This document shows, in pieces, positions 14,023-20,667 of a stretch of 64,000 bases of DNA. The first letter of the stretch is position 1. Every line of letters begins with the position of its first letter. The notes beneath the pieces are model-generated. The model was not told the origin of the DNA. It was given only the letters and a program-made list of their open reading frames with translations, and did no database searches. The DNA is from Planctomycetota bacterium (GTDB taxonomy: Bacteria > Planctomycetota > Phycisphaerae > Phycisphaerales > Phycisphaeraceae). Location of the stretch: the NCBI GenBank assembly GCA_024279865.1, contig JAJRRC010000022.1:62001-126000 (forward strand). The letters are read 5' to 3'. A program made the translations under genes and the position numbers.

Positions 14023-14826
14023 TTAGCGTTTTAATCCCGTGGCTAATTCCTGCATGAACGAGCCCAAGTGAGAAACCACCGCATCAGAACCCTGCTCACG
14101 CACGTCGGCAATTCGACGCACCAACGCAGAACCCACAATCGCAGCATCGGCCGCCGCCACCACGTCGCTCACCTGCTGGGCCGTCGAAACACCAAACCCC
14201 ACCGTGATGGGTAAATCAGTGGCCTGACGCAAAACCTCAATCCGGTCCGTCAAGTCCGGTGGAAGTGATGCTTGTTCACCCGTGATCCCCGCTCGAGCCA
14301 GCAAATACACAAAACCACTGCTGGCGGCAGCAATCTGCTCGGCCCGCTTGGGAGGGGTCGTCGGTGCAATGAGAAAACTCAGGATTGCACCATTTTTCTG
14401 CACAAGGTCCCGAGCTTTATCAGATTCTTCTAAGGGCAAGTCTGGAAAAATAAACCCATCAATCCCAGCCCCCACCGCGTCGGCAATGAACGCTTCATCG
14501 CCCAAACGATGCACAATGGAATAGCTCACCATGGCAACAAGGCCAATCTCTAACTGCTCCCGTACATCCGCGACCGATTGAAGGATGTCAACGACGTTAA
14601 GCCCTTGATCCAGCACGTAACTCATCGAAGCCTGAATCACCGGGCCGTCGGCAATGGGATCGGAAAAGGGAAATCCCAATTCACAGATCGACGCGCCAGC
14701 CTCTTGGGCTGCCAGCAGCAACTTGCCAGAGGTTTTTAAATCAGGGTCCCCCATCGTCAGATAAGGCATCAGAGCTTTGGCGTTGTCTTTCGCCAAACGG
14801 GTAAAAATAGCATCAATACGATTCAT
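14023..14826 (-). CDS. trpA: Tryptophan synthase alpha chain
   Basis: A 267-residue TIM-barrel subunit that splits indole-3-glycerol phosphate into indole and glyceraldehyde 3-phosphate, passing indole to TrpB. ELGFPFSDPIADGP carries Glu49 and Asp60, the catalytic pair at the positions found in Escherichia coli. The loop FIFPDLPLEES and the phosphate-binding VGFGVS and AAIVGSALV segments are present. The gene starts MNRIDAIFTRL with ATG at 14826. trpB and the other trp genes do not adjoin; the downstream gene encodes a HIT protein. The upstream gap is a repeat element, so the promoter may lie in or near it. Confidence 0.95.
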   Translation of the reverse strand: MNRIDAIFTRLAKDNAKALMPYLTMGDPDLKTSGKLLLAAQEAGASICELGFPFSDPIADGPVIQASMSYVLDQGLNVVDILQSVADVREQLEIGLVAMVSYSIVHRLGDEAFIADAVGAGIDGFIFPDLPLEESDKARDLVQKNGAILSFLIAPTTPPKRAEQIAAASSGFVYLLARAGITGEQASLPPDLTDRIEVLRQATDLPITVGFGVSTAQQVSDVVAAADAAIVGSALVRRIADVREQGSDAVVSHLGSFMQELATGLKR

Positions 14827-14849: not shown

Positions 14850-15010
14850 CTCAGCAATCAGCAATCAGCTGTCAGTCATCAGTAAGAAAAAAACAAAATA
14901 CAATGATGCACATCATATCATTTCTATTTTTATCCATAACTTTCAGGCATGGTACGACTGATTTTGGGGGTCTTTTTTCTGACTGAAAGCTGATGGCTGA
15001 TAGCTGAAAA
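14850..15010. repeat. Heptamer-array element with inverted arms
   Basis: The gap between trpA and the next gene is filled by two degenerate heptamer arrays in opposite orientation. The left arm (14850-14886) contains CAGCAATCAGCAATCAGCTG; the right arm (14976-15010) contains CTGAAAGCTGATGGCTGATA. About 90 bp of unrelated AT-rich sequence lie between. On one strand, the unit reads RCTGAYN. The element may be a mobile repeat or a folded RNA. Confidence 0.7.
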
Positions 15011-15012
15011 CT

Positions 15013-15993
15013 TTAAAATGAAGCTCGCCAATTCAAGGCAAACATACCACTTAACAACAAACCAAAACCGCCTGCGATTTCGATTTCCATGCCTGACATG
15101 GACAGCTCCATCGCAGAAGGTCCCAACAGCCAAACCCCCACAAACCCAAAGATCGGCAACAGCGTGAGCAACCCCGGATTCCGCCGATTGACCGAAGCCA
15201 ACCCCACGCACCCAGGCAACAACATCGCGAACCCCAATCCAAACCACAACGAAGCGAGCAACCATAAATTAAAAATCAAACTAATCGGGACCACCATCAA
15301 GTCCCCCCGCCCCGCCAAATTCGCGGCCGCCCGATGACCCTGCCAACGATTCAACAATGCCAGCGTCATGATCATCGATGCTGCATGAAACAACGGCAAG
15401 TCCTGAGGCATCACTCCAAACGGCATTTTAATCCCCCCCCACGCAGAGGGAATAAACGCCACTGCCACGAGAATGCTGATAAACAAATCCCCGGTCATCC
15501 GAAGATGACGCACCGCCAAGGCCCCCTGCCAAAAGATCGGCCAACCCGCAGAGATCAACATCCAACCCACCAGAACCATTTCAATGAGCCACGGATACGT
15601 GAGCGACCGAGGCCCCACCACGCCACCTGCTAAAAAAGGGGATAGATAGTGCAACAGCATCGCGGGCAATCCACAGACAATGGCCGTCGCAAAACGTGAC
15701 TTGTATTCATGGATCGTCTTTTGGCGCAAAGTATCTAAATCAGCTTCAGGCTGATAGATATTGCCCGCCCGGTCACGGATTTCTAGGCCAAACTGTCGAG
15801 CCACCGAAGCAGCCCCGTCAACTTGTTCTTCGGTGAGAGCTTGGGCGTTTTGGCTTAACTGGGCGCACTGACCGGCAGGGTCCACGCTGTTTTCGAAGCC
15901 CGCTTGATGCCAGGCCGTTGAAAGCGATCTCGCCAAGCGTGGGTCGGTCAGGCCGTCGAGAACCAGATGTGTGATAGCGGGTTGATCAGACAT
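15013..15993 (-). CDS. P-type-ATPase-like membrane protein lacking catalytic domains
   Basis: A 326-residue protein. The N-terminal 80 residues resemble a degenerate heavy-metal-associated domain. From residue 95 comes RQKTIHEYKSRFATAIVCGL and then SAGWPIFWQGALAVRHLRM followed by TGDLFISILVAVAFIPSAWG; this pattern (helix, GWPIF..GA..., then a short loop and helix) is that of transmembrane helices 1-4 of copper/zinc P1B-type ATPases. The CPx metal motif, DKTG phosphorylation site and nucleotide-binding domain are absent and the C-terminus is hydrophobic (five or six further helices). It could be a membrane sensor or a relict. Its start overlaps the metH stop by 8 bp, implying translational coupling. 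Function unknown. Confidence 0.62.
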   Translation of the reverse strand: MSDQPAITHLVLDGLTDPRLARSLSTAWHQAGFENSVDPAGQCAQLSQNAQALTEEQVDGAASVARQFGLEIRDRAGNIYQPEADLDTLRQKTIHEYKSRFATAIVCGLPAMLLHYLSPFLAGGVVGPRSLTYPWLIEMVLVGWMLISAGWPIFWQGALAVRHLRMTGDLFISILVAVAFIPSAWGGIKMPFGVMPQDLPLFHAASMIMTLALLNRWQGHRAAANLAGRGDLMVVPISLIFNLWLLASLWFGLGFAMLLPGCVGLASVNRRNPGLLTLLPIFGFVGVWLLGPSAMELSMSGMEIEIAGGFGLLLSGMFALNWRASF

Positions 15994-18900
15994 TGAAATA
16001 CTTGGCTTGTGGGTGATGGACGATAATCGCGCTGGTGGATTGTTCGGGATCAATCTGCCAATTTTCGGTCAAGACACAACCGATGCGTTCGGGCTTGAGT
16101 AGGCGGAACAATTTATCTTGATCGCTCATCTCCGGGCAAGCGGGATAGCCAAAGCTGTAACGGCTACCTTGGTAATTCTGGGTAAAGAGTTTGCGAACTT
16201 CGGGGGAATCGTTGCCGTCAATTCCCAGTTCTTGGCGAATACGTTTGTGCCACAGTTCAGCAAGAGCTTCAGCCGCCTCGACCCCGAAGCCATGGAGGTA
16301 GAGATACTCTTGGTATTCGTCAGCCTTGAAAAGCTCTGCTGTTTTCTTGCTTACGGTTTGTCCCATGGTCACACAGGACAGGGCAATCACATCCTTGCGA
16401 TCTGACCGGAAAAAGCTGCTAATGCACAAGCTCTGTCTGTCTTCTTGGCGTGGAAAGGAAAAACGCTCAATGGGTTTGTCATGATCTTCAGGATCAAAAA
16501 CAATGAGATCATCGCCTTGGCTTTGGCAGGGATAGTAGCCGTAAACCACGCTTGGGAGCAGGAGTTTTTCTTCTTTGCACTGGCGAGCGATGCGGTCAAA
16601 AACGGGGTCCACTTTGTCTTGGATCATCGTTGCATAATCCGCATCGGAGAGCTTGCCTTTTTTGAACTGCCACTGGCCTCGGTACAGAGCGGTTCGGTTG
16701 ATATAGTTATAAATCTCAGAGAGGTCCACATTCTCCACCAAGCGATCCCCCCAGAATGGTGGTTCTGGAATATCGACTTTTTCAATGACAAGGGGCTTGG
16801 CTGCTTTTTTCGGCGGGGTGGTCTTCGCGGCCGCCTCGGCGCGTTTGGCGAGGCGGGTTTCGATTTCTTCTTCAAGAAAATCCAATTCGCCCGAGGCAAG
16901 GATGTTCATCACGCGTAAGCCTTCAAACGCATCTTTGCCGTGGTAGGTTCGCCCGCCAGTTTCTGCATAGATCGCTCGCAGGTGACTGTCACAATAGTGC
17001 CGAGATAAAGCTGCACCGCCTAGGAGCATGGGCACGTCAACGCCTTGGGAGACGAGTTCTTTGAGATTGTCTTCCATGATGTTCACGGATTTGACCAACA
17101 GGCCTGACAGCCCGATGGCATCAGCCTGAGTTTCACGCCATTTGTCGAGGATGGCATTGATGGGTTGTTTGATGCCGATGTTAAAAACGGTGAAGCCGTT
17201 GTTGGTGAGAATAATATCCACCAAGTTTTTACCGATGTCGTGCACGTCCCCTTTGACGGTGGCGAGGACGATGGAGCCTTTGCTTTGGCTCTCACTTTTG
17301 GGCATGTGCGGTTCAAGGTGCGCGACGGCCATTTTCATGACCTCCGCTGACTGAAGTACAAACGGCAACTGCATTTGACCTGAACCAAACAACTGCCCCA
17401 CCACCTTCATACCTTCGAGCAGATGGTCATTGATAATTTCCAGTGGGCTATACGTTTTCATCGCCTCGGCAAGTGTGTCGGCAATGCCTTTTTTCTCGCC
17501 ATCAATAATATGCTGCTGCAAACGTTCCTCGGTCGAAAGTTCTGCCAAGTCTTGGGTTTGGGTTTGAGCCGCCGCATCATCAGGGAACAGCTCAATAAAG
17601 GTGGACAAGGGGTCAGGCAACGATTCGGATCGGCGGTCGTAGATCAAATCCAACGCAGCATTCCATTGTGCTTCATCAATTTTGCGTTTGGGCAAAATTT
17701 TGGTGACATGGACGATTGCGCCGGTCATGCCTGCTTCGACGAGTTCAAAGAGGAACACGCTATTGAGTACTTGGCGTGCTACGGGCTTGAGGCCGAAGCT
17801 GACATTGGAGAGGCCGCAGGTGATTTGGCTATCGGGGAACGCTGCTGCGATGAGCTTGGTCCCCTCAATGGTTTCCAATGCAGAGCGACGGTCCATTTCC
17901 ATGCCTGTGGAAATGGGTAGGACCAAGGGGTCGAACATGATGTCTGCTGGGGCAAGTCCATGGGCTTGCGTTGCCAATTTGAACATACGCGAAGCAATGC
18001 TGATTTTTCGATCAGCGGTGCGTGCCATGGCCTCTTGGGGATCTTCATCAATACAACCCAGCACGAGGCCTGCATTGTACGTTTTGGCCAATTGGCACAT
18101 CTGGGCAAATTTATCTTCGCCATCTTCGAGGTTCGCCGAGTTGATTAGGCATTTACCGGGCGCTGCTTTGAGGCCTGCTTCAATGGTCTTAATCTGGGTC
18201 GAGTCGAGCATCAACGGCGCGTTGACCTGGCGGACGAGTCGGGAGACAAACTCGGTCATGTCCTGAGCGTTGTCTCGGCCAGCATAGTCGACATTCACAT
18301 CAATGACATGAGAGCCTTCTCGCATCTGTTGGCGAGCGATGCTGATCATTTCGTCCCAGTTTTCTTCTTCGAGCAAGCGTTTGAACAAGCGACTACCTGA
18401 CGCATTGGTGCGTTCGCCGACGTTAAGGATCGAGGCATCTTGACGGTATTCGGTCACGCTGTAGAGACTGGTACAGCCGGGCTTGACGGTTTTTTTATCA
18501 GTCGAGGCGGACGGTTGGCCTTGGAGTTTTTCGACGACTGCTTTGAGATGTTGGGGGGTGGTTCCGCAGCAACCGCCAACGATCTGCACGCCGTCGCGTT
18601 GGGCACAGGCTGCCACTGCGTCGCCGAAGGGTGTGGGCTCCAGTGGATACACCGTCTGGCCGTCGATCAACGCAGGCAAGCCCGCATTGGGCAGCACACT
18701 GATCGCTTTGGGCCAGTGCTTAGAAAGCCATTGCACGTGCTGGGCCATTTCGGTCGGGCCCGTCGCACAGTTAAGGCCAAGGCTGAGAATCGGGTACGCC
18801 TCGAGTGCCATGGCGGCCGCGGCAATTTCCGTGCCCAGCAACATGGTCCCCGTGGTTTCGATGGTCACTTGAGCCATGATGGGAATGTCCCCATCCTGAT

Positions 18901-19462
18901 CCAGCATCGCAGGCGATAGGCCACGATCCACCAAGGCTTGGAGACAAGCATTGATCGCACATTTTACTTGCAGCAAATCTTGAGAAGTTTCAATCAGAAG
19001 CACATCAGCCCCGCCATCGATGAGCCCGCCTGCCTGAAGGCAATACGAATCACTCATCGTCTGCCAGTCGGTATTGCCAAGGGTGATGAGCTTGGTCCCA
19101 GGCCCCATCGACCCAATCACAAAACGTGGCTTGTCAGGCGTCGCATGTTTGTCACAGGCTTTGCGAGCCACCTGAGCAGCGAGCTGATTAAGTTCATAAC
19201 ACCGGTCTTGCAACTCAAATTCCTGCAACACATGGCTCGCAGCCCCAAAAGAATCCGTTTCCACCTCATCACAACCGACCGCCAAGAAAGATTCGTGAAT
19301 CGCCTGGATATCGTCTGGCCGCGTCAGAAGCAAGACTTCCGTGCAGTTTTCTTTGCCTAGATAATCCTTTTCCAAGTCCAGTTCCAGCTTATGAATAGCC
19401 GTCCCCATCGCACCATCAAGGATCAAGACACGCTGTTTTAGTTGTTCGACAAAAAGACTCAT
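15986..19462 (-). CDS. metH: Cobalamin-dependent methionine synthase
   Basis: A 1158-residue, full-length four-module enzyme that methylates homocysteine with methyltetrahydrofolate through cob(I)alamin. Residues 1-320 form the homocysteine domain (LDGAMGTAIHKL, GLNCATGP and VGGCCGTTPQHL, the zinc Cys triad). Residues 350-610 are the pterin-binding barrel (NVGERTNASGSRLFKRL). The B12 module has the cap helix and GDVHDIGKNLVDIIL near residue 740, where His is the lower cobalt ligand. The C-terminal S-adenosylmethionine activation domain ends with YSFGYPACPE and HHPQAKYFNV. ATG at 19462 is preferred over 19489. No cobalamin riboswitch was recognised upstream. The P-type-ATPase-like gene overlaps its stop. 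Confidence 0.96.
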   Translation of the reverse strand: MSLFVEQLKQRVLILDGAMGTAIHKLELDLEKDYLGKENCTEVLLLTRPDDIQAIHESFLAVGCDEVETDSFGAASHVLQEFELQDRCYELNQLAAQVARKACDKHATPDKPRFVIGSMGPGTKLITLGNTDWQTMSDSYCLQAGGLIDGGADVLLIETSQDLLQVKCAINACLQALVDRGLSPAMLDQDGDIPIMAQVTIETTGTMLLGTEIAAAAMALEAYPILSLGLNCATGPTEMAQHVQWLSKHWPKAISVLPNAGLPALIDGQTVYPLEPTPFGDAVAACAQRDGVQIVGGCCGTTPQHLKAVVEKLQGQPSASTDKKTVKPGCTSLYSVTEYRQDASILNVGERTNASGSRLFKRLLEEENWDEMISIARQQMREGSHVIDVNVDYAGRDNAQDMTEFVSRLVRQVNAPLMLDSTQIKTIEAGLKAAPGKCLINSANLEDGEDKFAQMCQLAKTYNAGLVLGCIDEDPQEAMARTADRKISIASRMFKLATQAHGLAPADIMFDPLVLPISTGMEMDRRSALETIEGTKLIAAAFPDSQITCGLSNVSFGLKPVARQVLNSVFLFELVEAGMTGAIVHVTKILPKRKIDEAQWNAALDLIYDRRSESLPDPLSTFIELFPDDAAAQTQTQDLAELSTEERLQQHIIDGEKKGIADTLAEAMKTYSPLEIINDHLLEGMKVVGQLFGSGQMQLPFVLQSAEVMKMAVAHLEPHMPKSESQSKGSIVLATVKGDVHDIGKNLVDIILTNNGFTVFNIGIKQPINAILDKWRETQADAIGLSGLLVKSVNIMEDNLKELVSQGVDVPMLLGGAALSRHYCDSHLRAIYAETGGRTYHGKDAFEGLRVMNILASGELDFLEEEIETRLAKRAEAAAKTTPPKKAAKPLVIEKVDIPEPPFWGDRLVENVDLSEIYNYINRTALYRGQWQFKKGKLSDADYATMIQDKVDPVFDRIARQCKEEKLLLPSVVYGYYPCQSQGDDLIVFDPEDHDKPIERFSFPRQEDRQSLCISSFFRSDRKDVIALSCVTMGQTVSKKTAELFKADEYQEYLYLHGFGVEAAEALAELWHKRIRQELGIDGNDSPEVRKLFTQNYQGSRYSFGYPACPEMSDQDKLFRLLKPERIGCVLTENWQIDPEQSTSAIIVHHPQAKYFNV

Positions 19463-19565: not shown

Positions 19566-19631
19566 TGTCAATTCAGTCTCCGCGAATCACAAAACACGCG
19601 AATTTTAAATATGAGGGGTATCATATCCGAG

Positions 19632-19808
19632 TTGTCAGCGATCAGCTATCAACGATCCGTAAGAAAGAATGCTAAAAACAATCAGTCAAGCCATGCCATG
19701 CCTAAAGCCATACCCAAAATCATGGATCAAAATGGAATTGGTATGATAGCAGTCATCGTTTTTGATTTTCGTTTCTTACTCATCGCTAACAGCTGATCGC
19801 TGATAGCT
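19632..19808. repeat. Heptamer-array element with inverted arms, between metH and uppP
   Basis: GTCAGCGATCAGCTATCAAC (19634) and, inverted, TCGCTAACAGCTGATCGCTG (19784) form the arms. About 110 bp lie between. The right arm ends 22 bp before the uppP start, so it must lie in or next to the uppP promoter or leader. The arrangement matches 14850-15010 and 29706-29832. The remainder of the 19463-19830 gap holds only the metH upstream region. Confidence 0.7.
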
Positions 19809-19830
19809 TAAAAAAAACAGGCCTCTGCAT

Positions 19831-20667
19831 ATGGACTGGTGGCAAGCTGTGATTCTGGGGATCGTTGAAGGGTTGACCGAATATTTACCGGTCAGCTCGA
19901 CGGGCCATCTGATCCTCACCGCATGGCTGATGGGTCTGGGGTCAGATGCGGCCAAATGGGAAGCAGCCTTCTCCTTTAACATCGTCATCCAGATCGGCGC
20001 AATTGCTGCGGTGCTGGGACTGTACCGCGTCCGCATCATGCAAATGCTTCGAGGCATCGTCGGCAAGGATGAACTAGGTAAACGCCTGGCGATCAATCTG
20101 ATCGTCGCGTTTTTGCCCGCCGCAGCGCTCGGCCCACTGCTCAAAGGACATATCCATGCCTACCTCAACGGCCCGTGGCCGGTGGTGGGCGCGCTCTTTG
20201 TCGGGGCATGGCTCATGCTTGTCTGTGGGAATCGCAACTCGCCGGGCAAACGGGATATCCATCACATCACTTGGCGAATTGCGTTACTCATCGGGTTTGG
20301 ACAATGTGTGGCAATGTGGCCTGGCACGAGCCGGTCGATGATGACCATTGTCACGGCCATGCTCTTGGGGATCGGCGCCAAAGACTCCGCTGAGTTTAGT
20401 TTTTTGCTGGGGTTGATCACCCTTACCGCTGCCACCAGCTATGAAATGCTCACCGAAGGGCACACCATTTTTACCCAGTTCGGCATCATGCCCATCGTCA
20501 TCGGCATCTTCACCGCCACCATCTGCGCGGCCGTCGCGGTCAAATGGTTTGTCAACTTTTTGACCAAATATGGCCTTGCACCGTTTGGCTGGTACAGACT
20601 GGTTCTCGCTTGCGTGGTGGGTGCGTTGCTCTTGCTGAACGTCTTTACGGTTCCAGCAGCACTTTAA
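19831..20667 (+). CDS. uppP: Undecaprenyl-diphosphatase
   Basis: A 278-residue UppP/BacA membrane enzyme that dephosphorylates undecaprenyl diphosphate to recycle the lipid carrier for peptidoglycan and surface glycans. The active-site motifs are visible: EGLTEYLPVSSTGHL at residues 15-29 (E/Q-rich box with the SSTGH catalytic segment) and PGTSRS near residue 166. Eight transmembrane segments are predicted. A start ATG at 19831 begins MDWWQAVILGIV, the usual family start. Its 3' end overlaps the convergent dehydrogenase by 23 bp. Resistance to bacitracin is a known overexpression effect of the family. Confidence 0.95.
   Translation: MDWWQAVILGIVEGLTEYLPVSSTGHLILTAWLMGLGSDAAKWEAAFSFNIVIQIGAIAAVLGLYRVRIMQMLRGIVGKDELGKRLAINLIVAFLPAAALGPLLKGHIHAYLNGPWPVVGALFVGAWLMLVCGNRNSPGKRDIHHITWRIALLIGFGQCVAMWPGTSRSMMTIVTAMLLGIGAKDSAEFSFLLGLITLTAATSYEMLTEGHTIFTQFGIMPIVIGIFTATICAAVAVKWFVNFLTKYGLAPFGWYRLVLACVVGALLLLNVFTVPAAL

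Follow-up and report, generated by a model that had tools for sequence, protein, structure and literature searches.

The open reading frame that follows the methionine synthase gene metH in the window, the 64,000-nucleotide stretch of DNA analysed here, belongs to a conserved, undescribed protein family that resembles P1B-type ATPases stripped of their engine. The coupling of soluble A, P and N domains to a membrane domain is what defines P-type ATPases, and a family that keeps the membrane domain without the engine offers a natural test of the membrane domain acting alone. The protein, called the stub below, is read, with a probability of about one half, as a pseudo-P1B-ATPase that does not pump and has been retained as a membrane receptor or scaffold; if true, it would be a bacterial example of a transporter that turned into a pseudo-transporter. 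It is proposed more tentatively that the stub is a stand-alone eight-helix P-type membrane domain, cleanly rid of the two cytoplasmic insertions, that has acquired a novel role independent of ATP (as a receptor, regulator or channel). To our knowledge, this would be the first engine-less P-type family, and the open-access literature searched contained no account of P-type ATPases of which only the membrane domain is left. The interest lies in the stub protein family and not in a link to vitamin B12. The features concerned are the following.

15013–15993, minus strand: stub, a gutted P1B-ATPase-like membrane protein (326 aa, ATG start; family alignment A2, 20 members)
15742–15984, minus strand: predicted HMA-like ferredoxin-fold domain, residues 4–84, no CxxC (model; VIA-align matches to GolB, PacS, ZntA and others, Z about 8)
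15304–15741, minus strand: helices MA, MB (kinked MB'), M1 and M2, residues 85–230 (sequence homology to P1B ATPases by hmmsearch, hhalign and the ATP7B match)
15016–15303, minus strand: predicted helices M3–M6, residues 231–326, joined straight to M2, with no A, P or N domain (structure only)
15986–15993, minus strand: 8 bp shared by the end of metH and the start of the stub (ATGTCTGA), the ATG lying within the metH codons Asn-Val-stop
15986–19462, minus strand: metH, cobalamin-dependent methionine synthase, 1158 aa (Pfam, NCBIfam)
14023–14826, minus strand: trpA, next gene downstream of the stub (Pfam, NCBIfam), found directly after metH in the relative G049
19831–20667, plus strand: bacA/uppP, divergent from metH (Pfam)

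Predicted structure and lost motifs

The Pfam scan with the window stub gave zero matches, and PDB and NCBIfam searches with this single sequence gave nothing useful; Pfam and NCBIfam scans with all 20 A2 members recognised no credible family. An NCBIfam match of the stub to a cobalt-precorrin methyltransferase was rejected as chance (E 0.16, 11 bits against a cut-off of 343). AlphaFold models were built from 12 sequences (pLDDT 79.8) and from 20 sequences (pLDDT 91.4, pTM 0.90). The N-terminal domain was modelled with a babbab ferredoxin-like fold, with VIA-align matches such as 4y2i (Z 8.8) and 1mwy (Z 8.4), and its HMA-like fold is confirmed by the predicted structure rather than by the sequence alone. 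The modelled helices comprise MA (86–121), MB (128–148), a kinked MB'-like helix (151–162), M1 (168–192), M2 (202–226), M3 (237–251), a broken M4 around P260, M5 (274–295) and M6 (303–323).

For the second model, the 12 best VIA-align matches were all P1B ATPases, with Z scores of 11.4–17.1, followed by a match with a Z of 8.8; these 12 spanned approximately residues 82–326, with chain positions up to the last helix. Against the Cu-ATPase 7r0g_A, 228 residues were superposed at 3.1 Å (model 82–326, chain 83–726), so that no fewer than 82 of the 99 C-terminal residues of the stub must lie in the superposition. The first model agreed with this, its list of matches being headed by 11 P1B ATPases. 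The best Foldseek match was ATP7B (E 7.3e-7), and several clean Foldseek alignments covered only about 137 columns (MA–M2). Eight membrane helices in the P1B arrangement MA, MB, M1–M6 are thus predicted. The original prediction, which had proposed a comparison of the predicted structure with P1B helices, saw in the protein the HMA-like and first transmembrane part of P1B ATPases; both parts were matched, and the extent was drawn too small, the model having all eight helices.

The same prediction had described a protein without phosphorylation or ATP domains, and this was borne out. The DKTG motif was found in 0/20 A2 members; the looser DKT, which is the string scored by the motif script, occurred once by chance near the N terminus, and the model leaves no room for a P domain between M4 and M5. 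GDGxN, of the N-domain hinge, was also found in 0/20. In place of an actuator domain, the model has an M2–M3 link of about 10 residues, and the two TGE strings present in A2 are chance occurrences outside M2–M3. CxxC was absent from all 20 members. M4 lacks CPC in the 20 A2 rows, which carry LPP, LPG, LPS, FPP, MPA, VPV or similar instead; judged by the model, the M4 proline of the stub probably corresponds to the CPC proline. The YN (M5) and MxxSS (M6) ligands, as defined in a passage of PMC9433437, were absent from the M5 and M6 columns of A2 read by eye. M158 of AfCopA, which according to the same passage acts jointly with the CPC cysteines in passing on copper, corresponds to a small residue, which in the window protein is G168, as read from the A2 and ATP7B alignments. 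The scaffold was kept, with the WP of the MB kink, R165 (19/20) and D169, R216 and P260 (20/20 each).

In the reading preferred here, the stub would descend from a Cu-type P1B ATPase, a descent established by sequence for HMA–M2. The actuator, phosphorylation and nucleotide-binding domains would have been lost, as demonstrated here, and so would the known metal-ligand motifs, as demonstrated for those tested. According to the structure prediction, the stub would retain the HMA-like domain and a complete eight-helix membrane domain, with the kinked MB' platform and the invariant M4 proline. Since the catalytic domains are absent, ATP pumping by the P-type cycle would not be expected, as follows from the mechanism of the family. 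Most likely, the HMA-like domain and the MB' platform would bind a protein partner or a small ligand and regulate it; in P1B ATPases, a passage of PMC9433437 presents the MB' platform as the proposed recruitment site of the CopZ chaperone.

The complete eight-helix transport domain of the model, the invariant M4 proline and several polar or charged residues conserved within the helices or close to them (such as Q156, D169, R216 and E305) would also suit a stripped P1B membrane domain that acts as a transporter or channel, for a non-metal or metal substrate and with passive or otherwise driven movement. This is an unlikely alternative, as CxxC, CPC and the M158 side chain are all missing and the stub has neither the A nor the P domain, which move the gates in P-type ATPases.

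Relationship to P1B ATPases

The A2 profile matched full-length P1B ATPases of relatives over MA–M2 (32 tested, best i-E 7e-11) and, in the PDB, ATP7B (E 1.9e-5). The hhalign score of MA–M2 against P1B ATPases was 54.1, and 30 column shuffles reached at most 22.5; the score of M3–M6 was 13.4, below the shuffled maximum of 15.8 and hence without signal. P1B homology of HMA–M2 is thus shown by sequence comparison. For M3–M6, homology is suggested by the structure alone, and the model may draw on what AlphaFold has learned of P1B folds. With no sequence similarity of M3–M6 to P1B ATPases, it could be argued that only HMA–M2 came from a P1B ATPase and that the last four helices are a different, fused module. 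This was judged improbable and ranks behind the transporter or channel, as the model puts M3–M6 where P1B ATPases have them, in the 7r0g_A superposition described above.

The P1B-1 Cu+-ATPases (AfCopA, LpCopA, ATP7B and HMA4) share with the stub an HMA-like N domain, the modelled MA/MB/M1–M6 arrangement, a kinked MB' with 'GWP', an Arg and an Asp before M1 and a Pro in M4; ATP7B also shares 'RWL.H' in M2. In contrast to these enzymes, of about 650–920 aa, the stub has about 326 aa, no A, P or N domain and no CxxC, CPC or M158 equivalent. Of the nearest analogies found in the literature, the inactive rhomboids (iRhoms) are similar in that a membrane enzyme fold outlives catalysis, although their fold is unrelated and their function has been studied. 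Apicomplexan guanylate cyclases contain a P4-ATPase-like domain, whose signatures are degenerate in PfGCbeta and for which a regulatory role is discussed in PMC6592433; they resemble the stub as a P-type ATPase membrane scaffold with degenerate signatures and differ in being eukaryotic, of the P4 class and fused to a cyclase, with the soluble domains kept.

Candidate intermediates were found in two P1B-like proteins of about 700 aa (L177, G668:C12, and L178, G676:C683), in which the A-domain region is much reduced and both CPC and GDGxND are missing. One of the two has FEKTGT in place of DKTGT, with Glu for the phosphorylated Asp, and the other keeps DKTGT. Against this pair, HMA–M2 of the stub gave an hhalign score of 82.5 (maximum of 20.1 in 20 shuffles), and M3–M6 gave 15.0, below the shuffled maximum of 19.7. 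They resemble the stub in the related HMA–M2 and in the loss of CPC and GDGxND, and differ from it in the retained P/N-domain region and, for G668, in a location away from the argD locus described below, its gene not being beside argD, HU or dnaK. The two proteins are possible intermediates towards the stub, and such A-domain-poor relatives in the same class may illustrate its origin.

Two full-size P1B-like proteins without DKTGT and CPC (L032, G195:C135, and L033, G280:C122) represent another degenerate P1B-like lineage in the phylum; the gene beside them presumably resembles tryptophan 2,3-dioxygenase. At L186:6769-7591 (G740:C5), an HMA-like ORF with CxxC was followed by a 175-aa ORF in another frame that covers MA–M2 only, and the pair is either another P1B truncation, shorter than the stub, or a single gene with a frameshift.

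An ATPase split between genes, with the A, P and N domains encoded elsewhere and acting in trans, is very unlikely. KdpFABC is a precedent for multi-subunit P-type systems; against a split ATPase here, all three matches of the TIGR01525 profile, with which partners were sought in the window genome, were near full length (1–559, 1–560 and 2–557 of 560), and no catalytic-domain gene was recognised among the annotated neighbours of the stub.

The metH locus

The metH gene is complete, with all five Pfam domains (S-methyl_trans, Pterin_bind, B12-binding_2, B12-binding and Met_synt_B12) and 1231 bits against TIGR02082 (cut-off 1010.85). The 8-bp overlap with the stub start was correctly reported in the original prediction (15986–15993). 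The stub ATG is contained in the end of the window metH, AAT GTC TGA, and the metH C-terminus reads ...KYFNV-stop in most relatives; the HMA motif of the window stub starts a few residues later than in most relatives in A2. Since the ATG lies inside these conserved last codons of metH, the overlap most plausibly arose incidentally when the stub was inserted behind metH. Translational coupling from metH to the stub would be suggested by the overlap, and no strong Shine-Dalgarno sequence was visible in the 27 nt before the stub ATG.

A role of the stub in the supply, sensing or retention of cobalt or cobalamin for MetH, along the lines of the original prediction, could draw on the overlap and on the ability in principle of a partial P-type pump to handle cobalt. 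This idea found no support and is highly improbable. By tblastn, metH was found in 0/16 other stub loci (5–19 kb each; the loci of G415, G436, G439 and G441, with 1.5-kb flanks, are outside this count). The stub was beside metH in 1/30 metH loci, that of the window itself, and flanked none of the other 29 (about 1.5 kb was covered on either side, save for one locus that had 358 bp downstream and a few that were shorter upstream). The metH-stub synteny that the original prediction proposed to look for is thus not conserved; of its two refuting observations, this one was made, and the other, a predicted structure unlike P1B helices, was not. In G049, trpA follows metH after about 240 bp with no stub between them, which suggests that the stub was inserted between metH and trpA in the window. 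The metal motifs tested are lost as well, and the sole NCBIfam 'cobalt' match is the chance-level one given above. The usual place of the stub being beside argD, its location behind metH is a rearrangement observed in a single lineage. The gene may have moved within the genome or have been regained, none of the 51 genomes searched in the taxonomic family sharing its genus. Co-expression of the stub with metH is probable in the window genome only. With the metH link known from a single lineage, operon position is a poor guide to the function of the stub.

Imperfect palindromic repeats with GCTGATAGC-type ends, at 14853–15010 and 19630–19812, flank the metH-stub pair; used as a query against the genome, 19625–19815 gave 17 matches including itself, the others short. 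These repeats are MITE-like and could have aided rearrangement. The divergent bacA-metH order is widespread in the taxonomic family, with bacA in the flanks of 23/30 metH loci (L114–L143).

Distribution, selection and the usual locus

Searches with the single window protein found homologues in 12/51 genomes of the taxonomic family, its own genome included, so that 39/51 were without a match and the protein family appears patchy. An alignment of the taxonomic-family homologues (A1) matched 22/301 genomes of the order, 21 with a stub and one (G341) with a full-length ATPase, and 7/392 genomes of the phylum, three of them via full-size P1B-like frames. With A2, 49/397 genomes of the class matched, with 5 stubs and 44 other P1B-like frames, and those inspected among the latter were mostly canonical P1B ATPases. 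The G032 member (L026), clipped by a contig end, is in A1 and was left out of A2. A contig scan gave zero loci with the single protein and 10 loci with the alignment, in Phycisphaeraceae/Planctomycetota MAGs that apparently duplicate genomes already counted.

The 20 aligned homologues are of similar length, with intact frames and no internal stops, and A2, whose members have 25–52% identity to the window protein, has eleven invariant columns. Purifying selection on the stub was shown in one genus, with dN/dS values of 0.10–0.33 (5 genes, 10 pairs). The loss of most of the ancestral protein and the other degenerate P1B-like genes in the phylum might point to an ATPase pseudogene in decay or to an error of assembly. 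This reading has a negligible chance of being correct, given these dN/dS values, the 20 intact homologues with their eleven invariant residues and the conserved locus.

At this usual locus, an argD-like class III aminotransferase gene was divergent from the stub in 10/10 testable f1 loci, and HU-like and dnaK genes were near the stub in 9/11 loci each, with one dnaK about 8 kb off. These conserved neighbours suggest no particular function. In the window genome and at two of the top three argD loci of genus g33, pdxA takes the place of the stub beside argD. Short ORFs between the stub and dnaK (clusters 4 and 11) were considered as partners and dropped, as they resemble antisense readings near the HU gene. 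In family f5 (L111 of G349 and L113 of G437), a protein with a weak squalene-hopene-cyclase-like match lies one ORF on from the stub, together with a 4HBT thioesterase; in G349, the stub follows ftsK.
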